Source of the DNA: Micromonosporaceae bacterium
Lineage (GTDB): Bacteria > Actinomycetota > Actinomycetes > Mycobacteriales > Micromonosporaceae
Direction: 5' to 3'
Assembly (NCBI GenBank): GCA_016880465.1
Contig: JAEHDK010000613.1
Location: forward strand, 1-45,832
DNA length: 45,832 nucleotides
Below are positions 8,021 through 32,811 of this stretch, piece by piece (the first letter of the stretch is position 1; each line of letters starts with the position of its first letter). The notes below the pieces were generated by a model. It was not told where the DNA came from. It did no database searches and was given only the letters and a program-made list of their open reading frames with translations. The translations under genes were made by a program, and so were the position numbers.

Positions 8021-8052
8021 AGCCGAGCCCGGGCCATGTCCCGGGCTCGGCT
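8021..8052 (+). terminator. Hairpin AGCCGAGCCCGGG-ccatgt-CCCGGGCTCGGCT
   Basis: Perfect 13-bp stem downstream of the SHOCT gene. Confidence 0.75.
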
Positions 8053-17703: not shown

Positions 17704-19206
17704 TCACAGGTCGTTGCCGGCGTACGAAAGGTTGAAGCTCTTGTTGGCCAGTGGGAAGTCCGGCACGATCGTATCGACCATGGCCAATGGCAGTGCGGGC
17801 CAGTTGAGGAACGACGGGTCGACGATCTTCCAGCGGGCCAGGGCGGCGGCGTCCGGGTGCAGTTCCACGCGGTGCACGATCGTGCCGCGCCAGCCTTCCA
17901 CGATCCCTACCCCGGACGTGGATGCGCCCGCGGCGGGCGGGACCCGGCTGGCGAGCCGGGTCGCCAGCAGTGTCGGGAGTAGCTCCCGTAGCAGTGCGGC
18001 CGATGTCTGCGCCTCCTGCGCGCGAACCAGGAACCGGGCCAGAACGTCGCCGCTGGTGTGCTGCGGAACGGTCACCGTACTGCCCTGGTCGCAGAAGGGG
18101 TGCGCCACGCGCGCGTCATAGGACAGGCCGCTGGCTTTGGCCACGTAGCCAAGGGTGCCGGTGTCGACGGCCTGCTGGCGGGTCAGTACGGCGGTGCCGG
18201 TGAACCGTTCGCGGATGACACTGTTGCCGAGCGCGATGTCGACGACCTGGGCAAGGTCGGTGGCGATCGCGCGGATGTCGGACGTGTCGGGGATGTGGTT
18301 CAGCGCCGCGCCGCCTGGAAAGATTCCGCCGCGTAGTAGCCGGTGGCCGGTGGTGGCCTTGTTCAGCCGCAGCAGTCGTTCCCGGATTCGTTGGGTGTGG
18401 GCGTGGGCGATGCCGTACGCGACGTCGTTGCACAGCGCCCCGATGTCTGCCACGTGGTTGTGTAGGCGTTCGAGCTCGAGCAGTGCGGCCCGCATCCGCG
18501 CGATGCCGGGCGACGTCTGGATGCGAAGTGCGTCCTCGACGGCGAGGCAGTAGGCAAGGGTATGGCCGGCGGCGGTGTCCCCGGACACCCGTTCCGCGAG
18601 GGCGAGGCCGTCGTCGACGGACTTTCCTTCGCTGAGCTTCTCGATGCCTTTGTGGACGTACCAGAGGCGGGCTTTGAGTTTGAGGACGGTCTCGCCGACA
18701 ACCGAGAACCGGAAGTGGCCTGGTTCGATGAGTCCGGCATGCACGGGCCCGACGGGGATCTCGTATACGCCATCGCCCTCCACGGTCAGGAACGGGAATG
18801 GCTGCGCCGTGGACGGCTCCGGCCGGGGACCGGCGTCGCGGCGCATCGGGTGCCACGACGCGGGCCAGCGCGGGTGGTGGACCAGCGAGCGGGGCAGCGG
18901 GTGGTTGTCGGGTTCGATGCCGTACAGGTCCCGCATCTCCCTCTCGAACCGGCTGGCCGGGAACGAGATGCTGGCCAGGCTGGGAACGTGCGGTTCGGCG
19001 GCAGCGGCGCGCAGCACCAGCTCGACGCGCCGGTCGGGCGGACCGGCGGTGAACACGTACACCACGCGGAACATCTCCCTGCCGCGGTCCGCTGGGGAGT
19101 CGTGGTGGGCGGCGACGAGGGCGAGCCGGTACCCGTTGCCAAGGAGCCCGGCGGCGTGGGTGGCCAGGTCCGTGGCATCGATATCGAGGCGGCTGAACTC
19201 GGCCAT
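17704..19206 (-). CDS. Hydrogenase-4/complex I NuoCD (HyfG/HycE)-like large subunit lacking NiFe cysteine motifs
   Basis: HKGIEKLSEGKS and ERVSGDTAAGHT region aligns by eye to HycE ERVCGICG; C-terminus IVPDFPLANKSFNLSYAGNDL in place of DPCxxC. Confidence 0.88.
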   Translation of the reverse strand: MAEFSRLDIDATDLATHAAGLLGNGYRLALVAAHHDSPADRGREMFRVVYVFTAGPPDRRVELVLRAAAAEPHVPSLASISFPASRFEREMRDLYGIEPDNHPLPRSLVHHPRWPASWHPMRRDAGPRPEPSTAQPFPFLTVEGDGVYEIPVGPVHAGLIEPGHFRFSVVGETVLKLKARLWYVHKGIEKLSEGKSVDDGLALAERVSGDTAAGHTLAYCLAVEDALRIQTSPGIARMRAALLELERLHNHVADIGALCNDVAYGIAHAHTQRIRERLLRLNKATTGHRLLRGGIFPGGAALNHIPDTSDIRAIATDLAQVVDIALGNSVIRERFTGTAVLTRQQAVDTGTLGYVAKASGLSYDARVAHPFCDQGSTVTVPQHTSGDVLARFLVRAQEAQTSAALLRELLPTLLATRLASRVPPAAGASTSGVGIVEGWRGTIVHRVELHPDAAALARWKIVDPSFLNWPALPLAMVDTIVPDFPLANKSFNLSYAGNDL

Positions 19207-21362: not shown

Positions 21363-22301
21363 TCAGGCCAGGATGGCGGAGGCAAGGACGGCGAGCAGTC
21401 CGAGGAAGAACGACCCAGCCAGCAGTTCGGGGACCCGGAACAGGCGCAGCTTCGCCGTCCAGACCTCACCGGCGCTCAGCAGTGCGGCAAGTCCACAGAC
21501 CTTGCCGATGAACACGGCGGCCCCGACGGCGAGCCACATCGGGTCCAGGCTCGTGGCGACCCCCCAGGGGGCGAACAGGTTCGCCAACAGACCGAGCAGG
21601 ATGCTCAGCCGCAGCGCCGCCGCCCATTCGACCAGAGCCAGGTCACGGCCGGAGTATTCGAGGACCATCGCTTCGTGCACCATGGTCAGTTCCAGGTGCG
21701 TGGCGGGGTTGTCCACCGGGATCCGGCCGGTCTCCGCCAGCGTTGCGATGGCCAGAGCGGCGGCGGCCAGCAGGCTCGCTGGGGTGAAGACCCGGGCCGG
21801 TTCGGTGGCGCCCGCGGCGACGATCCTGGACAGGTCGGTCGAGCCGACCCGAAAGGACAACGCGAACACGGCTAGGAGCAGGGTGGGCTCGACCAACGCC
21901 GCGATCACCATGGCACGGCTGGCACCCATGCCCCCGAACGCGGTTCCGGTGTCCAGTCCGGCCAAGGCCAGGGCGACGGTGCCGAGCAGCAGCAGTCCGA
22001 CGACGACGATCAGGTCCGCGCCCCCGAACAACGAGGTGGCCGCGATGAAAGGCCCGGTGGCCGCGACGATGAGGCTGGTGGCCATCATCACCGCCGGCGC
22101 GGCAACGAAGAACATGCTGGCGTCGGCGGGGCTGGTGGGCTGCTTGCGCAGCTGCTTGCACAGGTCCCGCCACGGTTGCGCGATGCGGCCACCGGCGCGG
22201 CCTGCCAGCCGTGCCGGTACCGCCCGGGTGACTCCCACCACCAGCGGCGCGGCCAGCGCGAGCAGTGCGGCCTGGGCGACCGCAACCAGCCACGGCGTCA
22301 C
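21363..22301 (-). CDS. HycD/HyfC/NuoH-like membrane subunit
   Basis: TGRIPVDNPATHLELTMVHEAMVLEYSGRDLALVEWAA motif of HycD/NuoH; GTG start at 22301. Confidence 0.88.
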   Translation of the reverse strand: MTPWLVAVAQAALLALAAPLVVGVTRAVPARLAGRAGGRIAQPWRDLCKQLRKQPTSPADASMFFVAAPAVMMATSLIVAATGPFIAATSLFGGADLIVVVGLLLLGTVALALAGLDTGTAFGGMGASRAMVIAALVEPTLLLAVFALSFRVGSTDLSRIVAAGATEPARVFTPASLLAAAALAIATLAETGRIPVDNPATHLELTMVHEAMVLEYSGRDLALVEWAAALRLSILLGLLANLFAPWGVATSLDPMWLAVGAAVFIGKVCGLAALLSAGEVWTAKLRLFRVPELLAGSFFLGLLAVLASAILA

Positions 22302-24316
22302 CGGATCACCCCCGCGACGAGCACGACGACGAGCGCGACGAGCATGTATGCCAGATAGCGGTGTACGCTGCCCGACGCCAGCGCGCGCGCCCGGGTGCCG
22401 ACGGCGGCAACGGTGTCCACCACGGGCCGGTAGAGGCGGTTCTCGATCCGGTCGGGGATCTGCTGGTGATAGCGGATCGCCGCTACGTGGTAGGCGGATT
22501 CGGTGTCGTGGGTGACGTCGATATCGCGTTCGGGGGCCAGCACGTCGTCGAAGACCCGTTGCAGCGGCTCGGCGAACGAGGTCGCGGTGTACTCCATCCG
22601 GGCGGTGAGCGGTCCGTCGCCGCAGTCCCAGGCGATGGCCCGGCGCCGCGCCCGGCCGAGGCTGCGCGCGGTGACCGCGACCGTGCCCGTGACGGCGACG
22701 ATGCCGACCGCGAGCCACAGCGGCCGGACGCTGGCGGCGGTGCCGGCCAGGTGCAGCCCGAGTACCTCCCGGTTAACCGGTGTCCCGCCGAGCTGCAGGC
22801 CGGCCAGTACGCGGGTAAGCGCCGGTGTCGCGAGTGCGGGCACGACCGCCAGGGCGACGCAGCCGGCTGCGGCCACGCCCATGGCGGTGAGCATGCTGGC
22901 TGGTGACTCGACGGCACGAGCCGCGCAGTCGCTACGGGGTCGGGCGAGAAAGCCGGTGCCGACGGCTTTGACGAAGGTCACTACTGCCACCCCGGTGGTC
23001 AGCGCGACCACCGCGACGGCCAACGGCGCGGCGATCGTCAGGGCGGTGTCCGCGCCCTGGCCGGGATGCAGAAAGGCTTGCAGGAGCAGCCACTCCGAGA
23101 CGAATCCGTTGCCGGGGGGCAAGGCCGCGGCGGCCAGTGCACCGGTGGCAACGAAGGCGGTGGTGACGGGCATCGGCCGCACCAAGCCGCCCAACTGGTC
23201 GAGATGCCGGGTGCCGGTGGCCCGGACCACGGACCCGGCACCCGCAAACAGCAGGGTCTTGAATGCGGCGTGGTTGACGGTGTGCAGCAGGACCGCCGTC
23301 ATGGCCAGCCCCGCCGCAAGCGTGTTGCCGGCGTGGGCGAGCACGCCGGTAAAGCCGATGCCGAGCAGGATCAGCCCGATGTTCTCGCTGGTGGAGAACG
23401 CCAGCAGGCGTTTGAGGTCGCCGGCGACGGCTGCCTGCATGATCCCGTACAGGGCCGACAGCGCGCCAAGGGCGGCGACGACCAGCCACCACCAGCGTGG
23501 TCCGCCGCCGAGTAGGTCGAACCCGACCCGCAGGATGCCGTATACCCCGAGTTTGACCATGGCGGCGCTCATCAGCATGGAGACGTGGCTCGGTGCTTCG
23601 GCGTGGGCGCGGGGCAGCCACGGGTGCAGCGGCACCGCCCCGGCCTTCGAGGCGAACCCGGCCAGGCACAACAGGAAGACCGCGCCGGTGACGGCCGCCG
23701 GCAGGTGACCCGCAGCAGAGCGGATGCCGGCGAAGCTGACCGAACCGGTGGCAGCGGCCAGCCAGAGCAGCCCGACAAGCAGAGCGACGAATCCGGCCTG
23801 GGTCATCGCCGCGTACCAGACCCCAGCGGAACGAACCGCGGCGCGGTGCCGGTGTTCGGTGAGGACCAGCAGCAGCGAGGCGACCGCCATCAGCTCCCAG
23901 ACAGCAAGCAGCGTCGGCACGCTCCCGGCGACCGGCACCAGGGCCATGGCGGCGGTGAAGACGGGAAGTACGGTCAGCGACGTGCCCGAGCCGGGACCGC
24001 GGCCGTCACCCCCGGCGTAGCCGATCGTGTAGATGCCCACGACGGTGGTGACCGCGCCGACGATCACCAGGAACCAGCCCGACAGGGCGTCCGCATCTAG
24101 GGTCAACCCCGCAAGCGGCAGCACACCGGGCAACTCGGCCCGCCAACCGATCCCGGTCACCGCCGCGATCCCGGCTGCGACACCGGCCGTACCGGACACC
24201 GCCGTCAGGACACCGACGACACGTGCCCGCCACCGGGAAGGCGTGCCGATCGCGGCCACGGATGCGCACATGGCCAGGCCGGTGGTGGCGGCCAGGCCGG
24301 CCGCGATGGGGTTCAC
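22298..24316 (-). CDS. HyfB/NuoL-like antiporter subunit
   Basis: SKAGAVPLHPWLPRAHAEAPSHVSMLMSAAMVKLGVYGILR; ~16 TM. Confidence 0.9.
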   Translation of the reverse strand: MNPIAAGLAATTGLAMCASVAAIGTPSRWRARVVGVLTAVSGTAGVAAGIAAVTGIGWRAELPGVLPLAGLTLDADALSGWFLVIVGAVTTVVGIYTIGYAGGDGRGPGSGTSLTVLPVFTAAMALVPVAGSVPTLLAVWELMAVASLLLVLTEHRHRAAVRSAGVWYAAMTQAGFVALLVGLLWLAAATGSVSFAGIRSAAGHLPAAVTGAVFLLCLAGFASKAGAVPLHPWLPRAHAEAPSHVSMLMSAAMVKLGVYGILRVGFDLLGGGPRWWWLVVAALGALSALYGIMQAAVAGDLKRLLAFSTSENIGLILLGIGFTGVLAHAGNTLAAGLAMTAVLLHTVNHAAFKTLLFAGAGSVVRATGTRHLDQLGGLVRPMPVTTAFVATGALAAAALPPGNGFVSEWLLLQAFLHPGQGADTALTIAAPLAVAVVALTTGVAVVTFVKAVGTGFLARPRSDCAARAVESPASMLTAMGVAAAGCVALAVVPALATPALTRVLAGLQLGGTPVNREVLGLHLAGTAASVRPLWLAVGIVAVTGTVAVTARSLGRARRRAIAWDCGDGPLTARMEYTATSFAEPLQRVFDDVLAPERDIDVTHDTESAYHVAAIRYHQQIPDRIENRLYRPVVDTVAAVGTRARALASGSVHRYLAYMLVALVVVLVAGVIR

Positions 24317-24789
24317 CGGCCGGTCAGGCCGCGCAACGCAGCGACTATCGCGTCCGGTTCCGGCGGGCAGCCAGGCACCTGCGCATCGACCGGGACCACA
24401 TCCGATACCGGGCCGGCCACGCCATGCCCACCCGCGAACACGCCACAGTCCTTTGCGCAGTCGCCGATCGCGACGACCAGGCGCGGTTCGGGCATCGCCT
24501 CGTACGCCTTGCGCAACGCGCTGGCCATGTTGACCGTCACCGGCCCGGTCACCGTCAACACGTCGGCGTGGCGGGGCGAGGCCACCAGCCGGACGCCATA
24601 CCGTTCGATGTCATAGACGGGCGAGAACGCCTGCCCAATCTCGATCTCACAGCCGTTGCACGATCCGGCGTCGACGTGCCGGACCTGTACCGACCCGGCC
24701 AGTCCAGCCGCTTGCGGCAGCCGTTCACCACGATCGCCGGCCGGTTCGGCGACCCGGCCCGCGGATCGGATCTTGCGGATCAGGCCCAC
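24313..24789 (-). CDS. NuoB/HyfI/HycG-like [4Fe-4S] subunit
   Basis: SCNGCEIE..VTGPVT..GDCAKDCGVF..VPGCPPEP N2-type ligand pattern; likely GTG start 24789 (ORF open to 24831). Confidence 0.85.
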   Translation of the reverse strand: MGLIRKIRSAGRVAEPAGDRGERLPQAAGLAGSVQVRHVDAGSCNGCEIEIGQAFSPVYDIERYGVRLVASPRHADVLTVTGPVTVNMASALRKAYEAMPEPRLVVAIGDCAKDCGVFAGGHGVAGPVSDVVPVDAQVPGCPPEPDAIVAALRGLTGR

Positions 24790-24919
24790 GCCGACACCGC
24801 TTGCCCGGCCGGACACCGGTCCCTGACACACGCGGACTGGCCAGCGGGGCGACGGACATCCGAAGCTGTCCGGTGCACGCTGGCTCGGTCGGGCCGGGCG
24901 GCGGTTCGGGAGGCAGGCG

Positions 24920-25261
24920 TCAGGACTGGGTCGCGCCGTCGGCGCGCAGGTCGTCGAGCAACTCCACCTGTACGGACAACACCTCGGTCAAGATCCGGCG
25001 GGCGACCGCCAGAAGTTCGGCGACCTGCGGGCTGACCAGCGAGTAGTAGACGGTGGAGCCCTCCTTGCGGCTGACGACGAGGTTCAACCGGCGCAACACC
25101 GACAACTGCTGGGAGAGGTGTGCCGGCTCGATACCGACCTGCGGCAGCATCGCGGACACCGGATGCTCGCGCTCGGAGAGCAATTCCAGCACCCGGATGC
25201 GCGCCGGATGAGCCAGGGCCTTGAAGAACTCGGCCTTGGCCTGGTACAGCGGTGTGTTCAC
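24920..25261 (-). CDS. ArsR-family transcriptional regulator, Rv0081-like
   Basis: LYQAKAEFFKALAHPARIRVLELLSERE..HLSQQLSVLRRLNLVVSRKEGSTVYYSL; contains no cysteine. Confidence 0.9.
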   Translation of the reverse strand: MNTPLYQAKAEFFKALAHPARIRVLELLSEREHPVSAMLPQVGIEPAHLSQQLSVLRRLNLVVSRKEGSTVYYSLVSPQVAELLAVARRILTEVLSVQVELLDDLRADGATQS

Positions 25262-25404: not shown

Positions 25405-25436
25405 TTCACAAGTTGCTAAACTTAGCAAGTAGTGAA
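25405..25436. promoter_or_regulatory. 32-bp nested dyad TTCAC-aag-TTGCTAA-ac-TTAGCAA-gta-GTGAA (candidate ArsR operator)
   Basis: Two perfectly centred inverted repeats in the divergent arsR-pckA intergenic region, AT-rich in a GC-rich context. Confidence 0.7.
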
Positions 25437-25503: not shown

Positions 25504-27333
25504 ATGACTGATCCGGCGCCGCTGCGGCTGCCCAGCAATCCCCCGACCAGCCACCCACGGCTTCTAGCCTGGGTGACCGAGGTCGCGGCACTGACCACCC
25601 CGGAGCAGATCGTCTGGTGCGACGGGTCGGCGGAGGAATGGCAGCGGCTCACCAACCAGCTCGTCGACGGCGGTACCCTCGTGCGGCTCAACGAGGCGAA
25701 GAAGCCGAACTCGTTCCTGGCCCGCACCGACGCGTCCGACGTCGCTCGCGTCGAGGACCGCACCTTCATCTGCTCGCTCGACGAGACCGACGCCGGTCCG
25801 ACCAACAACTGGCGCGCCCCGGGCGAGCTGAAGCAGCTGTTGACCGACCTGTACCGCGGCTGTATGGCTGGGCGCACCATGTACGTCATCCCGTTCTGCA
25901 TGGGCCCCCTCGACGCCGAAGAACCCAAGTTCGGCGTCGAGGTCACCGACTCGGCATACGTCGCGGCCAGCATGAAGATCATGACCCGGATGGGTACGCC
26001 GGTCCTGGACGTGATGGGTACGGACGCCGACTTCGTGCCCGCCCTTCACTCGGTCGGCGCGCCCCTTGCCCCTGGGCAGGCGGACGTAGGATGGCCGTGC
26101 AGCGACACCAAATACATCGCCCACTTCCCGGAGACACGCGAAATCTGGTCCTACGGCTCCGGGTACGGCGGCAACTCGTTGCTCGGCAAGAAGTGCTACA
26201 GCCTGCGCATCGCCTCGGTGATGGCGCGGGACGAGGGCTGGCTGGCCGAGCACATGCTCATCCTCAAGCTCACCAACCCGGCCGGCAATGTGTACTACAT
26301 CGCCGCGGCGTTCCCGTCCTCCTGCGGCAAGACGAATCTGGCCATGCTGGAACCCACGATCGACGGCTGGACGGTCGAGACCCTCGGTGACGACATCGCC
26401 TGGATGAGGTTCGGCGACGACGGCCGGCTCTACGCGATCAACCCGGAGTACGGGTTCTTCGGCGTAGCGCCGGGCACCGACTACACCACCAACCCCAACG
26501 CCATGCGCACCCTGGACAAGGGCAACTCGCTATTCACCAACGTCGCGTACACCGACGACGGTGACGTGTGGTGGGAAGGCATGGCTACGCCACCGGGCCA
26601 TCTCACCGACTGGCTCGGCCGCGACTGGACGTCCGGCACCGCCGCGCCATCGGCACACCCCAACAGCCGGTTCTGCACCCCGATCACGCAGTGCCCGATC
26701 CTGGCACCCGAATACGACGACCCACGCGGCGTGCCGATCTCGGCGATGCTGTTCGGCGGCCGGCGCAAGACCACCATCCCCCTTGTCGTGCAGGCACGGG
26801 ACTGGAACCACGGGGTCTTCATGGGCGCCACCCTGTCCAGCGAAACGACGGCGGCCGCGGTCGGGCAGGTCGGCGTCGTGCGCCGGGACCCGATGGCCAT
26901 GCTGCCCTTCATCGGCTACCACGCCGGGGACTACCTGCGGCACTGGACCACGATCGGCAAGCACTCGGCCAACCCGGACCTGCTGCCGTCGATTTTCCAG
27001 GTCAACTGGTTCCGCCGCGGCAGCGACGGCCGCTTCCTGTGGCCCGGTTACGGGGAGAACTCGCGCGTACTGAAATGGGTAATCGAACGCTTGGAAGGCA
27101 CCGCGGACGCCGTGGACACCCCGATCGGATACGTACCGGCGCCGGGGGCGATCGACACCAGCGGCCTCGAACTCCCGCCTGCGGACCTGGCGGCCGCCCT
27201 ACGGGTCGACCCCGCGGAATGGACGCAGGAGATCCCGCAGATCACCGAGTGGTTCGCCACGTTCGGCGACCGGATCCCCGCCACCCTGTGGGCCGAGCTC
27301 GACACCCTGAAAGCACGGCTGGTCAGCCCGTAA
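25504..27333 (+). CDS. pckG: Phosphoenolpyruvate carboxykinase (GTP)
   Basis: [48 protein letters not shown] motifs. Confidence 0.95.
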
Positions 27334-27697: not shown

Positions 27698-28462
27698 TCA
27701 CTGGGTCGTGGCCGTCAGCCGGCTGGACCGGGATGGCGGCGGGACCAAGCGGTAGCCCAGTCCACGGACCGTCACGATGATCTGTGGATCTCCCTGGTTG
27801 TCGCCGAGCCGCATCCGGAGTCGCTTGATGTGCACGGTGAGTGTGTTCGATGCGTCGCTGGCCTGCCCGCCCCAGATGCTTTCGTAGATCTGGTCCCGGG
27901 TAATGACCCGGTCGACATGGATCATGAAGAAGCGCAGCAGGTGGTACTCGCGAAGGGGAAGCCGAATGGGTTGGCCGTGCAGTCGGACCTCCAGGGTCGC
28001 CGGGTCCAGGCGCAGCCCGCCACACTCGAGTACGGGCTCCAGCGTGCCGATGGTCTCCGGCCGGATCGACCTGAGGATCGCGATCAGCTCAGCAAGGCGG
28101 TACGGCCGCGCGATGCAGGCCGTGGCGCCAGCCACGAGGGCCTCGCCCGCGTAGCTCCCCTCACCGGCACTCACCCCGACCACGACGGGAGTCCTGGTAT
28201 GCCTGGCGACGGCGCGGACGAAGCTGCTGCTACTGATGGCACCCGGCGCTGCGGCCACGACGGCGGTGTCCGGTCGCGTCGTGCCGGCCAGAACCAGTGC
28301 CTCTGCCGGGTCCGCGCAGACCTCGACATCGACGTGCTGGCGGGTCAGTTCCGCGACGAGGGGACCGCCGGGATCCAGTGTCGGGTCGACGATGAGTAGC
28401 CGGAACCGTGGGCGCCAGCCGTTCGGCGTCTTGGACAGCTCGAGGAGGTTCGAGGCCAACAC
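27698..28462 (-). CDS. OmpR-type winged-helix regulator with degenerate receiver domain
   Basis: C-terminal LPLREYHLLRFFMIHVDRVITRDQIYESIWG..TLTVHIKRLRMRLGD..VRGLGYRLV; receiver has AVVAAAPG at the phosphoacceptor position and ARPY instead of KPF. Confidence 0.85.
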   Translation of the reverse strand: MLASNLLELSKTPNGWRPRFRLLIVDPTLDPGGPLVAELTRQHVDVEVCADPAEALVLAGTTRPDTAVVAAAPGAISSSSFVRAVARHTRTPVVVGVSAGEGSYAGEALVAGATACIARPYRLAELIAILRSIRPETIGTLEPVLECGGLRLDPATLEVRLHGQPIRLPLREYHLLRFFMIHVDRVITRDQIYESIWGGQASDASNTLTVHIKRLRMRLGDNQGDPQIIVTVRGLGYRLVPPPSRSSRLTATTQ

Positions 28463-28474
28463 CCGCCACTCGTC

Positions 28475-29335
28475 CTACCCGAACCGGCCGGTGATGTAGC
28501 CCTCGGTCCGCGGGTCCTTGGGGTTGGTGAAGATGCGGCCGGTCTCCCCGAACTCAACCAGCCGGCCGTGCCGGACCTGCTTCTCGTCCACCTCGGCGGT
28601 GAAGAACGCCGTGTGGTGGCTGACCCGGGCCGCCTGCTGCATGTTGTGCGTGACGATCACGATGGTGTACTGCTTGCACAGCTCGTACATGAGGTCTTCG
28701 ATCCGGCCGGTGGCGATCGGGTCGAGCGCGGAGCATGGCTCGTCCATCAGGATCACGGCCGGCTTGATGGCGATGGTGCGGGCAATGCACAGCCGCTGCT
28801 GCTGACCGCCGGACAGTGCCATGCCGCTGGTCTTCAGTTTGTCCTTCACCTCGTCCCAGAGGGCCGCGCCGGTGAGGGCCTCCTCGACCATGTCGTCCAT
28901 GTTGCCTTTGATGTTGTTTATCTTTATGCCGTACGCAACGTTCTCGTAGATCGACTTCGGGAACGGGTTGGGCTTCTGGAATACCATTCCGATCTGGCGG
29001 CGGACCTGGATCGGGTCCACGTCCCGCGCGTAGATGTCCTGTCCGAGGTAGGTGATCGTACCGGTGACCCGGGCGCCACGGATCAGATCGTTCATCCGGT
29101 TCAACGCCCGCAGGATGGTGGACTTGCCACATCCAGATGGTCCGATCATCGCCGTGATCTCGTTCTGCCGCACCGGCAGCGTGGCGCCCCGCACCGCCTC
29201 GTAGTCGCCGTAGAAGACGCTGACATCCCGCAGCTCCATCAGCGCCGCGCCACCGTCGGCCGGCTGCCGTTCCGCGCCGTCGTGGCGCCAGCCGGCGTCG
29301 ATGTGCACGGCGGGCCGGTCGTTGGTAGCCGTCAT
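28475..29335 (-). CDS. pstB: Phosphate ABC transporter ATP-binding protein PstB
   Basis: [59 protein letters not shown]; start chosen at MTATND (29335), alternative 29239. Confidence 0.95.
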
Positions 29336-29397
29336 GGATGTCACCTCAAAGGCTCGGCGGCGGTGGGTCAACGGGGTACCGGTAGAAGTGCTCATGG

Positions 29398-30306
29398 TCA
29401 GCGTTCCTTGATAGCAAAGCGGTTGGCGATCAGCCGACTGATCAACGTGGCGAGCAGCACGATGACCACGAGCGTCAGGGCCGCACCCCAGGCTCGGTCG
29501 GTCGCGGCCTCGAATGGCTCCGTGGCGTTGCGGTAGATCTGGACCGGCAACGCGGTGTTGCTCCCGGACAGGTGCCAGTTCACCCGCTGGGTCAGGCCGA
29601 CGACCAGCACGATCGGAGCCGTCTCGCCGGCCGCGCGCGCGACCCCGAGCAGCGCGCCACTGGCGATGCCGGAGACCGCCGCCGGAAGCACGACGGTGAC
29701 GATGGTGCGCCACTTGCGCGCGCCGAGTGCCAGGCTCGCCTGCCGCAGCTCGTCGGGCACGAGCCGCAGCATCTCCTCGCTCGAGCGGATCACGACCGGC
29801 AGCATCAGACAGGCCAGGGCCAGCGCACCGGCCAGGCCGCTCTGCTCGGTGGTGAGCACCACCGCGGTGTAGATGAACAGGCCCATCACGATCGACGGCA
29901 CGCCGGTCATCACGTTGGACATCAGCCGCACGCTCCGCGCGAGCGCGTTCTGTTTCCCGTACTCGTTGAGATAGATGGCGCCCAGCACCCCGAGCGGAAT
30001 GGCCAGCAGCGACGCCAACCCCGTCATCAGCAACGTGCCGGCGATCGCCGGGCCGATCCCGCCGCCCGGGTTGGCCAGCTGGCGCGGGATCGGCTTGGTG
30101 AGGAAATCCCAGCTGATCATTTTCGCGCCCTTGGCGATCACGTAGTACATGACCAACGCGACCGGCACGACCGCGATGATCACCGACAGCCATATCCCCG
30201 TCCGGACGAGGGTATTGGCCAAGCGCCGCCGCGTCGCCAGCGAGCCCCGGCCCAGACCTGACGGGGCCGACAGCGGCTGCTGCGCAGCCTGGACGGTCGT
30301 GGTCAC
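29398..30306 (-). CDS. pstA: Phosphate ABC transporter permease PstA
   Basis: [55 protein letters not shown]. Confidence 0.95.
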
Positions 30307-31301
30307 GCCGACGCTCCCTTCATCCGGACATCGGCGCGCCGGACGACCACCGCGGCGGCGTAGTTGATCACAACGGTGATCGCGAAGAGCAGCACACCCA
30401 ATGCGATCAGTGCGGACCGACCGGGCGGCACCCCCGGATCGCCGAAGTTGAGCGCGATCACCGACGCGAGCGTGTTGCCAGCCGCGAACAGGTTCGGCGT
30501 TATCTGGGTGGCGGCCCCGATCGTCAAGGCCACCGCGATCGTCTCACCCATTGCACGCCCCAGCCCGAGCATGACCGCGCCGACCATGCCGCCGAAGCTG
30601 TGCGGGAAGACCGCTCCCCTGATCATCTCCCATTGGGTGGCGCCCAGGGCGTACGCGGCTTGCTTGTCGGCGTCCGGAACAGTGGCGAACACCTCTCGGG
30701 TGATCGACGTGATGATCGGGATGATCATGATTGCGACGATCATGCCCGCGGTCATGAAACCGCGACCGGAGGAGACCGGTTCGCCGAACAGCGAGCCGAG
30801 CACGGGGATGTCGCCGAGGGCGCCATGGAGGCCGTTGTAGACCTTCACCAGGGCTGGACCTACGACGATGATGCCCCAGAGGCCGAAGACGACCGAAGGG
30901 ATCGAAGCGAGCAGATCTATCACGGTGACCACCGTCGACCGCAGCCGCGTCGGGGCGAGCTCGGTCAGGAACAGCGCGATGCCGATCGAGATCGGCACGG
31001 CGAAGATCAGCGCGATGATCGAGACGACCGTGGTGCCGTAGACGAACGACAGGGCACCGTACACCGGCCCCGCTCCGTCGACCTCGAGCGGGACCCACGA
31101 CGGGCTGGTCACGAAGCCCAAACCGGCGTACTTGAGCGCCGGCCACGCCTCGCGCAGTGTGGTAACCAAGATCAGCACCAGGATGGCCAGTACCAACGCA
31201 CCCGCCGCCAGGCTCACCGCGGAGAAAGCGCGATCCGAGGCCGCCCCACGCCCCCTGGCTGTCAGCGGCTGGGCGGGCGGTCGGTCGGTGATCTGCGTCA
31301 C
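30303..31301 (-). CDS. pstC: Phosphate ABC transporter permease PstC
   Basis: [57 protein letters not shown]. Confidence 0.95.
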
Positions 31302-31328
31302 GTGGATGCTCCCGAAATGAAGATGTGC

Positions 31329-31365
31329 CCTCGGGGACGGAATCCAGACGATTCCGTCCCCGAGG
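31329..31365 (-). terminator. Intercistronic hairpin CCTCGGGGACGGAATC-cagac-GATTCCGTCCCCGAGG
   Basis: Perfect 16-bp stem between pstS and pstC. Confidence 0.85.
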
Positions 31366-31386
31366 TATCACCCGAGCCGGTGGACC

Positions 31387-32481
31387 TCAGCCCTGCACCT
31401 GCACCTTGTCGATCTGCGCCAGCGCCTTCGTCTGAAGAGCTGCCGGCAGCTTCGCGAAGCTCACCGACTCCGCGAACTGCTGCCCGTCGGTGAGCAGCCA
31501 CTTCAGGAAGGCCTTGACGTTCTTGCCCTTGGTCGCGTCGGTGTACGTCGGCTTGACCAGGATGTACGTGGGCGCAGTGATCGGATAGCTCGCCGCACCG
31601 GTCGCGTCCAGTGGATCGTAGGACAGATCATCCTTGACCGTCGCGCCGGCCAGCGCCGCGGTCGTCCCGGCCAGGGACGGTTTGACGTACTTGCCGTCCT
31701 TGTTCTTGATCGCCGCGAACACCAGGCCGCTCGCGGTGGCATCGGCAAGGTCCACGTAACCGATCGCGCCGTCGCTCTGCTTGATGATCTGTGCCACGCC
31801 GGTGTTCTTGTCGCCGCCCTGGGTGTCCGCGGGCCAGGCGACCGTGTCGCCGGTGCTGAGCTTCCATGCGGGCGCGGCCTTGGTCAGGTACTTCGTGAAG
31901 TTGTTGGTCGTGCCGGAGCCGTCCGAGCGGTGCGCCACGACGATGTTCTTGTCAGGCAGGTTGGCGTTCGGGTTGTCGGTCTTGATCGCCTGGTCGTTCC
32001 ACTTCTTGATGTCCCGCTGGAAGATCTTGGCTACCGTGTCGGCGCTCAACTGCAGATCGGCCACCCCGGACAGGTGGTACGCCACGGTGATCGGCGCGGC
32101 GACCGTCGGCACGTAGAGGAACGAGCCGTCCGCCGGACCGTCACCCGCCTTGACCAGGCTGTCCGAGCCGGCGAAGTCGGTCAGTCCAGACCCGAACTCC
32201 TTCTTGCCGGTACCAGATCCGGTCGAGTTGTAGGTGATGTTGAGATTCGGCGCGACCTTCGCGAACTCGTCCAGGGCCTTCTGGTAGTACGCGTTGGGGA
32301 AGCTGGCGCCGGACGCCTTCAGCTCACCGGACAGCTTCGAGAGATCGGAGCCGGCACTGGCCGGGGTGTTGCCGGCGCCGGTCTCGTCACCGTTGCCGCC
32401 GCAGCCGGCGAGTGCGAGCGCAGCGATCGTGACACCAGCGATGCTGGCGAGGACGCGCCGCGAGAGCACGTTGCGGTTCAC
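31387..32481 (-). CDS. pstS: Phosphate-binding lipoprotein PstS
   Basis: Lipobox ALALAGCGG; GASFPNAYYQKALDEF, YNSTGSGTGKKEF, VAHRSDGSGTTNNFTKYL; GTG start 32481. Confidence 0.95.
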   Translation of the reverse strand: MNRNVLSRRVLASIAGVTIAALALAGCGGNGDETGAGNTPASAGSDLSKLSGELKASGASFPNAYYQKALDEFAKVAPNLNITYNSTGSGTGKKEFGSGLTDFAGSDSLVKAGDGPADGSFLYVPTVAAPITVAYHLSGVADLQLSADTVAKIFQRDIKKWNDQAIKTDNPNANLPDKNIVVAHRSDGSGTTNNFTKYLTKAAPAWKLSTGDTVAWPADTQGGDKNTGVAQIIKQSDGAIGYVDLADATASGLVFAAIKNKDGKYVKPSLAGTTAALAGATVKDDLSYDPLDATGAASYPITAPTYILVKPTYTDATKGKNVKAFLKWLLTDGQQFAESVSFAKLPAALQTKALAQIDKVQVQG

Positions 32482-32571
32482 CTCAGATTGACCTCTCTGT
32501 AGGAGTTTCCGTCCGGCCAGGCTGACCTGACGTGGCCGACCGTAGAAGCGACGGGTAGCCGGATGCCTCAT

Positions 32572-32593
32572 CAGGAGTGAACGTCGGGTGAAC
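32572..32593 (-). promoter_or_regulatory. PHO box: two 11-nt direct repeats GTTCACCCGAC GTTCACTCCTG on the minus strand
   Basis: Matches the Streptomyces PhoP direct-repeat PHO-box pattern (GTTCACC); about 90 nt upstream of pstS. Confidence 0.75.
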
Positions 32594-32811
32594 ACCGCAG
32601 CGTGGTCGGGTAACCGGACATCGTCGGTCGAAGTGGAGAGGAGCTTACTAACCAGATCGGGTACGGCCAAAACAGATTACGAGTCATTCGGCGATTCCGA
32701 GTGCGGCGGCACCGGTCGGCGGCCCGAGCGGTGTGGTGGGCCACCCGCCCGGTACTCGCACATGACCGGATCATCATTGACACCGCCACGTCGCGAATGT
32801 AGCCAAGCTGG

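Follow-up and report, generated by a model that had tools for sequence, protein, structure and literature searches.

ArsR/SmtB-family regulators typically act as repressors when bound at a dyad in their own promoter, and some members of the family sense ligands other than metals or thiols. In the Rv0081-Rv0088 locus of Mycobacterium tuberculosis, arsR has NuoB-like, HyfB-like and other Hyf-like genes behind it. The regulator Rv0081 dimerises, activation of Rv3334 by Rv0081 has been proposed, and Rv0081 was reported to repress its own promoter, where it binds an inverted repeat (PMC6177252). Overexpression of Rv0081 raised the expression of the tested targets, and the short Rv0081 sites shifted by EMSA include GAGAATTC and GAGAATTT (PMC4757040).

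The window analysed here, a stretch of 45,832 nucleotides from a Micromonosporaceae bacterium, resembles the Rv0081-Rv0088 locus in the order arsR, NuoB-like gene, HyfB-like gene and in the closest structure of its ArsR protein. The features relevant to the comparison are:

17704..19206, minus strand: HyfG/NuoCD-like large subunit (Complex1_49kDa and 30kDa)
22298..24316, minus strand: HyfB-like antiporter subunit (Proton_antipo_M; top NCBIfam match below cut-off)
24313..24831, minus strand: NuoB-like 20 kDa subunit, first gene of the Hyf/Ehr-type operon (Oxidored_q6)
24920..25261, minus strand: ArsR/SmtB-family regulator of 113 amino acids, Rv0081-like, without cysteine (Pfam HTH_5, NCBIfam HTH_metalloreg)
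25405..25436, no strand: putative full operator dyad TTCACAAGTTGCTAAACTTAGCAAGTAGTGAA, 13 of 16 pairs symmetric
25413..25428, no strand: putative core operator TTGCTAANNTTAGCAA, one genomic copy, kept 5' of ArsR orthologues
25504..27333, plus strand: pckA2, predicted accessory GTP-dependent phosphoenolpyruvate carboxykinase (PEPCK), divergent from arsR (NCBIfam PRK04210, tree)

Read leftward, arsR is followed by the NuoB-like gene, the HyfB-like gene and further Hyf/complex I subunits. The best NCBIfam match of the HyfB-like protein is hydrogenase 4 subunit B, under the cut-off of that model. In the translated large subunit, the first nickel-binding CxxC is replaced, with RVSGDTAAGH in place of RxCGxCxxxH. 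Since this nickel-binding cysteine motif is missing, the predicted complex fits the Ehr type and not an energy-converting [NiFe] hydrogenase (Hyf/Ech).

The HTH domain of the regulator scores above the curated cut-offs of Pfam HTH_5 (26.7 vs. 22) and NCBIfam HTH_metalloreg (83.8 vs. 55), and its closest solved structure is that of Rv0081 (6jmi, E 1.2e-34; runner-up 8e-13). Like the classical autorepressors SmtB, CzrA, NmtR and BigR, the window's ArsR belongs to the winged-helix dimer family and has as its putative operator an imperfect inverted repeat in its own promoter. In contrast to these, it lacks cysteine, its operator sequence is different and its neighbours are genes of energy and carbon metabolism instead of metal efflux. 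As none of the 113 residues is a cysteine, a metal- or thiol-sensing cysteine site is absent, and a thiol metal site can be regarded as excluded for the translated protein. The missing cysteine limits the candidate ligands but does not argue against membership in the ArsR/SmtB family, because members sensing other ligands exist; the releasing signal is probably non-metal.

The locus also departs from that of Rv0081. Autoregulation through an upstream inverted repeat is reported there (PMC6177252), and a corresponding behaviour of the window's ArsR is what we infer from the likeness. The operator is apparently a different one, since relatives of the mycobacterial type that share the gene order have dyads such as TATGATGAATTCTTCAAT or GGTGAAAATATTTTCAAT and not TTGCTAANNTTAGCAA. 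No pckA was seen in the fetched mycobacterial-type stretches, and whereas Rv0081 is described as a broad hub, the genome of the window has one site. By comparison of the sequences, the window's ArsR thus appears to be a hyf regulator of the Rv0081-like kind that uses a different operator code and has an additional metabolic target. Literature searches for such an ArsR with PEPCK, SulP or Ehr found nothing on point, and those for the operator letters returned unrelated matches only.

The dyad consists of the outer arms TTCAC and GTGAA, the spacers AAG and GTA, and the inner arms TTGCTAA and TTAGCAA flanking a central AC. Its sequence, its coordinates, the shared centre at 25420/25421 and its place between the divergent ArsR and GTP-PEPCK genes had been given correctly in the original prediction, as re-reading and the gene positions and strands confirm. 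The count of 24 symmetric bases out of 32 had to be raised to 26 (13 of 16 pairs), because the pair A25411/T25430, one of the conserved outer positions, had been overlooked. The dyad had rightly been called AT-rich in a GC-rich window (66% AT vs. 29% AT, i.e. 71% GC) and is among the window's most AT-rich 32-mers. A perfect 7-bp inner arm and 5-bp outer arm in the same register are expected 0.015 times per window from first-order Markov controls and were seen in 3 of 200 of them; the real window has two. Because of these two matches, symmetry alone is only suggestive of an operator. Further 32-base stretches with at least 13 of 16 symmetric pairs lie in the window near 8036, 10043 and 17957. 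The genome-wide search that had been proposed, carried out as pattern searches, gave a single match: TTGCTAANNTTAGCAA with up to two mismatches occurs once in the 5.5 Mb genome, and a relaxed core pattern with one mismatch still finds one site. A terminator role of the dyad was rejected, as there was no terminator call, and DosR-box-like matches in the window are no commoner than chance.

Cross-species conservation of the dyad is what we regard as the decisive evidence. Comparison loci were fetched by ArsR similarity, and genes in GC-rich loci were called with codon-position bias. TTGCTAANNTTAGCAA or a near match lies 5' of most close ArsR orthologues in several actinobacterial families; the families and orders with the core or a near match in this position are Micromonosporaceae, Streptomycetaceae, Pseudonocardiaceae and Streptosporangiales. 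A first sample of Actinomycetes loci held 45 distinct sites with at least 12 of 14 matches, and in 45-65 sites the outer positions T(-7), A(-2), T(17) and T-G-A(20-22), which overlap the outer arms described originally, are preferred. The core columns are conserved partly by construction, as sites were picked by core similarity, which does not apply to the outer columns or to the presence/absence test. In that test, an exact site was present in 15 of 250 genomes of the family (17 sites in total; one with the reversed control), and a close ArsR orthologue (at least 71% identity) in 29, all 15 site-bearing genomes included. The exact site is thus found in 15/29 genomes with the orthologue and in 0/221 without it (Fisher p 1.7e-16, shared ancestry ignored). 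Most other close orthologues among the 29 have 11-13 of 14 matches upstream, and the sites in the family genomes adjoin ArsR, hyf, pckA or malic-enzyme-like genes. For some close orthologues no recognisable site was found within 500 bp; missing sites are often explained by a site 5' of a preceding gene, and the distance from the start codon varies widely, from 29 to more than 1,400 bp upstream. When six distinct arsR/pckA intergenic regions of three genera were aligned (seven rows, including one identical pair), no block other than the core was clearly conserved. Conservation in orthologous intergenic regions, on which the original prediction had been staked, was strongly borne out, and divergent arsR/pckA genes with the dyad in between recur in other Micromonosporaceae genera.

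Among ArsR clades, the operator sequence varies as well. In a small Streptomyces clade whose recognition helix (EAASLSQQL) carries serine instead of histidine, TTGCAGG..TCTGCAA lies in front, and mycobacterial-type and other more distant ArsRs have dyads like TGAAGAATTCTTCA, TATGATGAATTCTTCAAT and TTTGAAGAATTCTTCAAT, which the EMSA-shifted Rv0081 sites GAGAATTC and GAGAATTT resemble. The TTG/CAA-flanked frame is largely retained, while the inner bases vary among the clades. These clade-linked differences support, but do not prove, recognition by ArsR, because histidine and asparagine at the recognition-helix position both go with TTGCTAA and each change represents one clade. Due to its co-occurrence with the ArsR clade, its position in the promoter region and its variation with distant ArsRs, we consider it nearly certain that the adjacent ArsR of the Rv0081-like clade uses the dyad as its operator.

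In most genomes the partners of this ArsR and site are arsR-hyf, arsR alone, SulP-associated loci or a malic-enzyme-like gene. As the same kind of site mostly serves other genes, pckA would be an optional partner. Malic-enzyme and SulP names were read from the sequences, with no family search behind them. At four Micromonospora loci the order is operator, malic-enzyme-like gene, arsR, i.e. a different C4/C3 enzyme takes the place of pckA. At least five loci of Streptomyces and relatives have a second such ArsR 5' of a SulP-family transporter; Streptomyces SulP-type transporter loci carry TTGCNAANNTTNGCAA variants, and SulP-associated ArsRs are often preceded by TTGCAAAATTTCGCAA-type dyads, which suggests a wider SulP-associated regulon of related ArsRs. 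No SulP gene was found in the genome of the window.

The pckA2 product passes the equivalog model PRK04210 (980 bits vs. a cut-off of 504), and the operator centre lies 83 bp from its start codon. PEPCK is encoded twice in the genome of the window, on contigs C249 and C576. Among 28 genomes checked, additional pckA sequence lies elsewhere in every genome that has an ArsR-linked pckA (for G441, only a contig-end fragment of the linked copy is visible), and genomes without a linked copy have a single pckA gene, the two matches in G430 looking like one gene broken across contig ends. In the pckA tree, the 8 rows of ArsR-linked copies from Micromonosporaceae group together in one supported clade, next to a housekeeping clade of 18 rows; further linked copies arise elsewhere in the tree, with four label changes in total. 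Micromonosporaceae pckA promoters with a divergent arsR, the window included, have an operator score of 14/14, and at 18 housekeeping pckA promoters of the family the operator was not found (best score 9/14). The ArsR-linked pckA is by these criteria best described as an accessory paralogue and not the housekeeping gene. The original prediction had suggested that the operator could jointly control the Ehr-type complex and the PEP/oxaloacetate node; the PEPCK identity held, and since the adjacent gene appears to encode an accessory isozyme, the controlled target would be this isozyme and not the whole node. G031 has three separate ArsR-linked pckA copies plus a housekeeping gene, and G361 an extra linked copy whose match is in two pieces. 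Beyond pckA2, translations of the opposite strand at 27698-32670 comprise a pst phosphate-uptake set (PstB, PstA, PstC, PstS-like) and a winged-helix response-regulator-like gene.

We propose that the joint control extends to pckA2, which is probable, although the operator might serve autoregulation of arsR-hyf only and leave the pckA2 promoter an unaffected bystander. The site serves arsR without pckA in most genomes, and no recognisable pckA promoter was seen, as this alternative would expect. It is nevertheless unlikely, because several families have pckA linked with this ArsR family, in varied orders (divergent; arsR-pckA with the site in front; pckA-arsR), because the linked pckA of the tested genomes is accessory, and because the tree shows four changes of the linked state.

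According to the reading we prefer, which is very likely as a whole, an ArsR dimer at the operator would repress both divergent promoters until an effector releases it. The winged-helix homodimer would read TTGCTAA in each inner half through the recognition helix EPAHLSQQL, and its wings the outer positions A(-2)/T(17) and T(-7)/A(22). Bound ArsR would block RNA polymerase at both promoters, that of arsR-hyf and the divergent one of pckA2, so that one site might couple the Ehr-type membrane complex to an inducible second PEPCK. A sigma-70 promoter scan near the dyad found no canonical promoter, so the occlusion geometry is only suggested. In Catellatospora relatives a TGTANTCT-like element lies about 14 bp past the site on the arsR side, where the window has TACACT similarly placed; it may be an extended -10 element with its upstream part covered by the operator.

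Repression instead of activation is likely. That site-bound ArsR mainly activates hyf and pckA2 is improbable: repression is the typical mode of ArsR regulators at dyads of their own promoters, as is established for the family, and Rv0081 represses its own promoter (PMC6177252, citing He et al. 2011), even though the same report proposes activation of Rv3334 (PMC6177252) and the raised expression of tested targets upon overexpression makes activation possible at some sites (PMC4757040). An RNA element, i.e. a 5' UTR hairpin instead of or besides the protein operator, is very doubtful, because the foldability of the dyad as RNA (z -2.5) and the matching of non-conserved symmetric outer positions beyond shuffles (-4/19 in 36 of 65 sites, 18.4 expected; -8/23 in 34 of 65, 20.4 expected) are opposed by a core conserved in its bases beyond mere pairing, by a position and strand that vary relative to the genes, by core differences that go with the ArsR clade, and by covariation inflated by shared ancestry. 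The excess outer-arm pairing in the 65 sites is not demanded by a protein dimer alone and could stem from template-switch homogenisation, an RNA role or ancestry.

Returning to the ArsR operator, the contrast between TTGCTAA, TTGCAGG and TGAAGA dyads represents a natural experiment on ArsR recognition, and the 16-bp operator code would make the regulon mappable in any actinobacterial genome. For the role that the Hyf/Ehr-like complex plays at Rv0081-type loci, a conserved operator in common with a duplicated PEPCK, or with a malic-enzyme-like gene, offers a concrete metabolic lead. We speculate, with the chances about evenly balanced, that a previously undescribed actinobacterial regulon exists in which the cysteine-free ArsR clade and the TTGCTAANNTTAGCAA code switch the Ehr-type complex together with a dedicated accessory PEPCK or, in Micromonospora, the malic-enzyme-like gene. 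If true, such a regulon would mean that a conserved metabolic mode couples C4/C3 interconversion to the Ehr-type complex.
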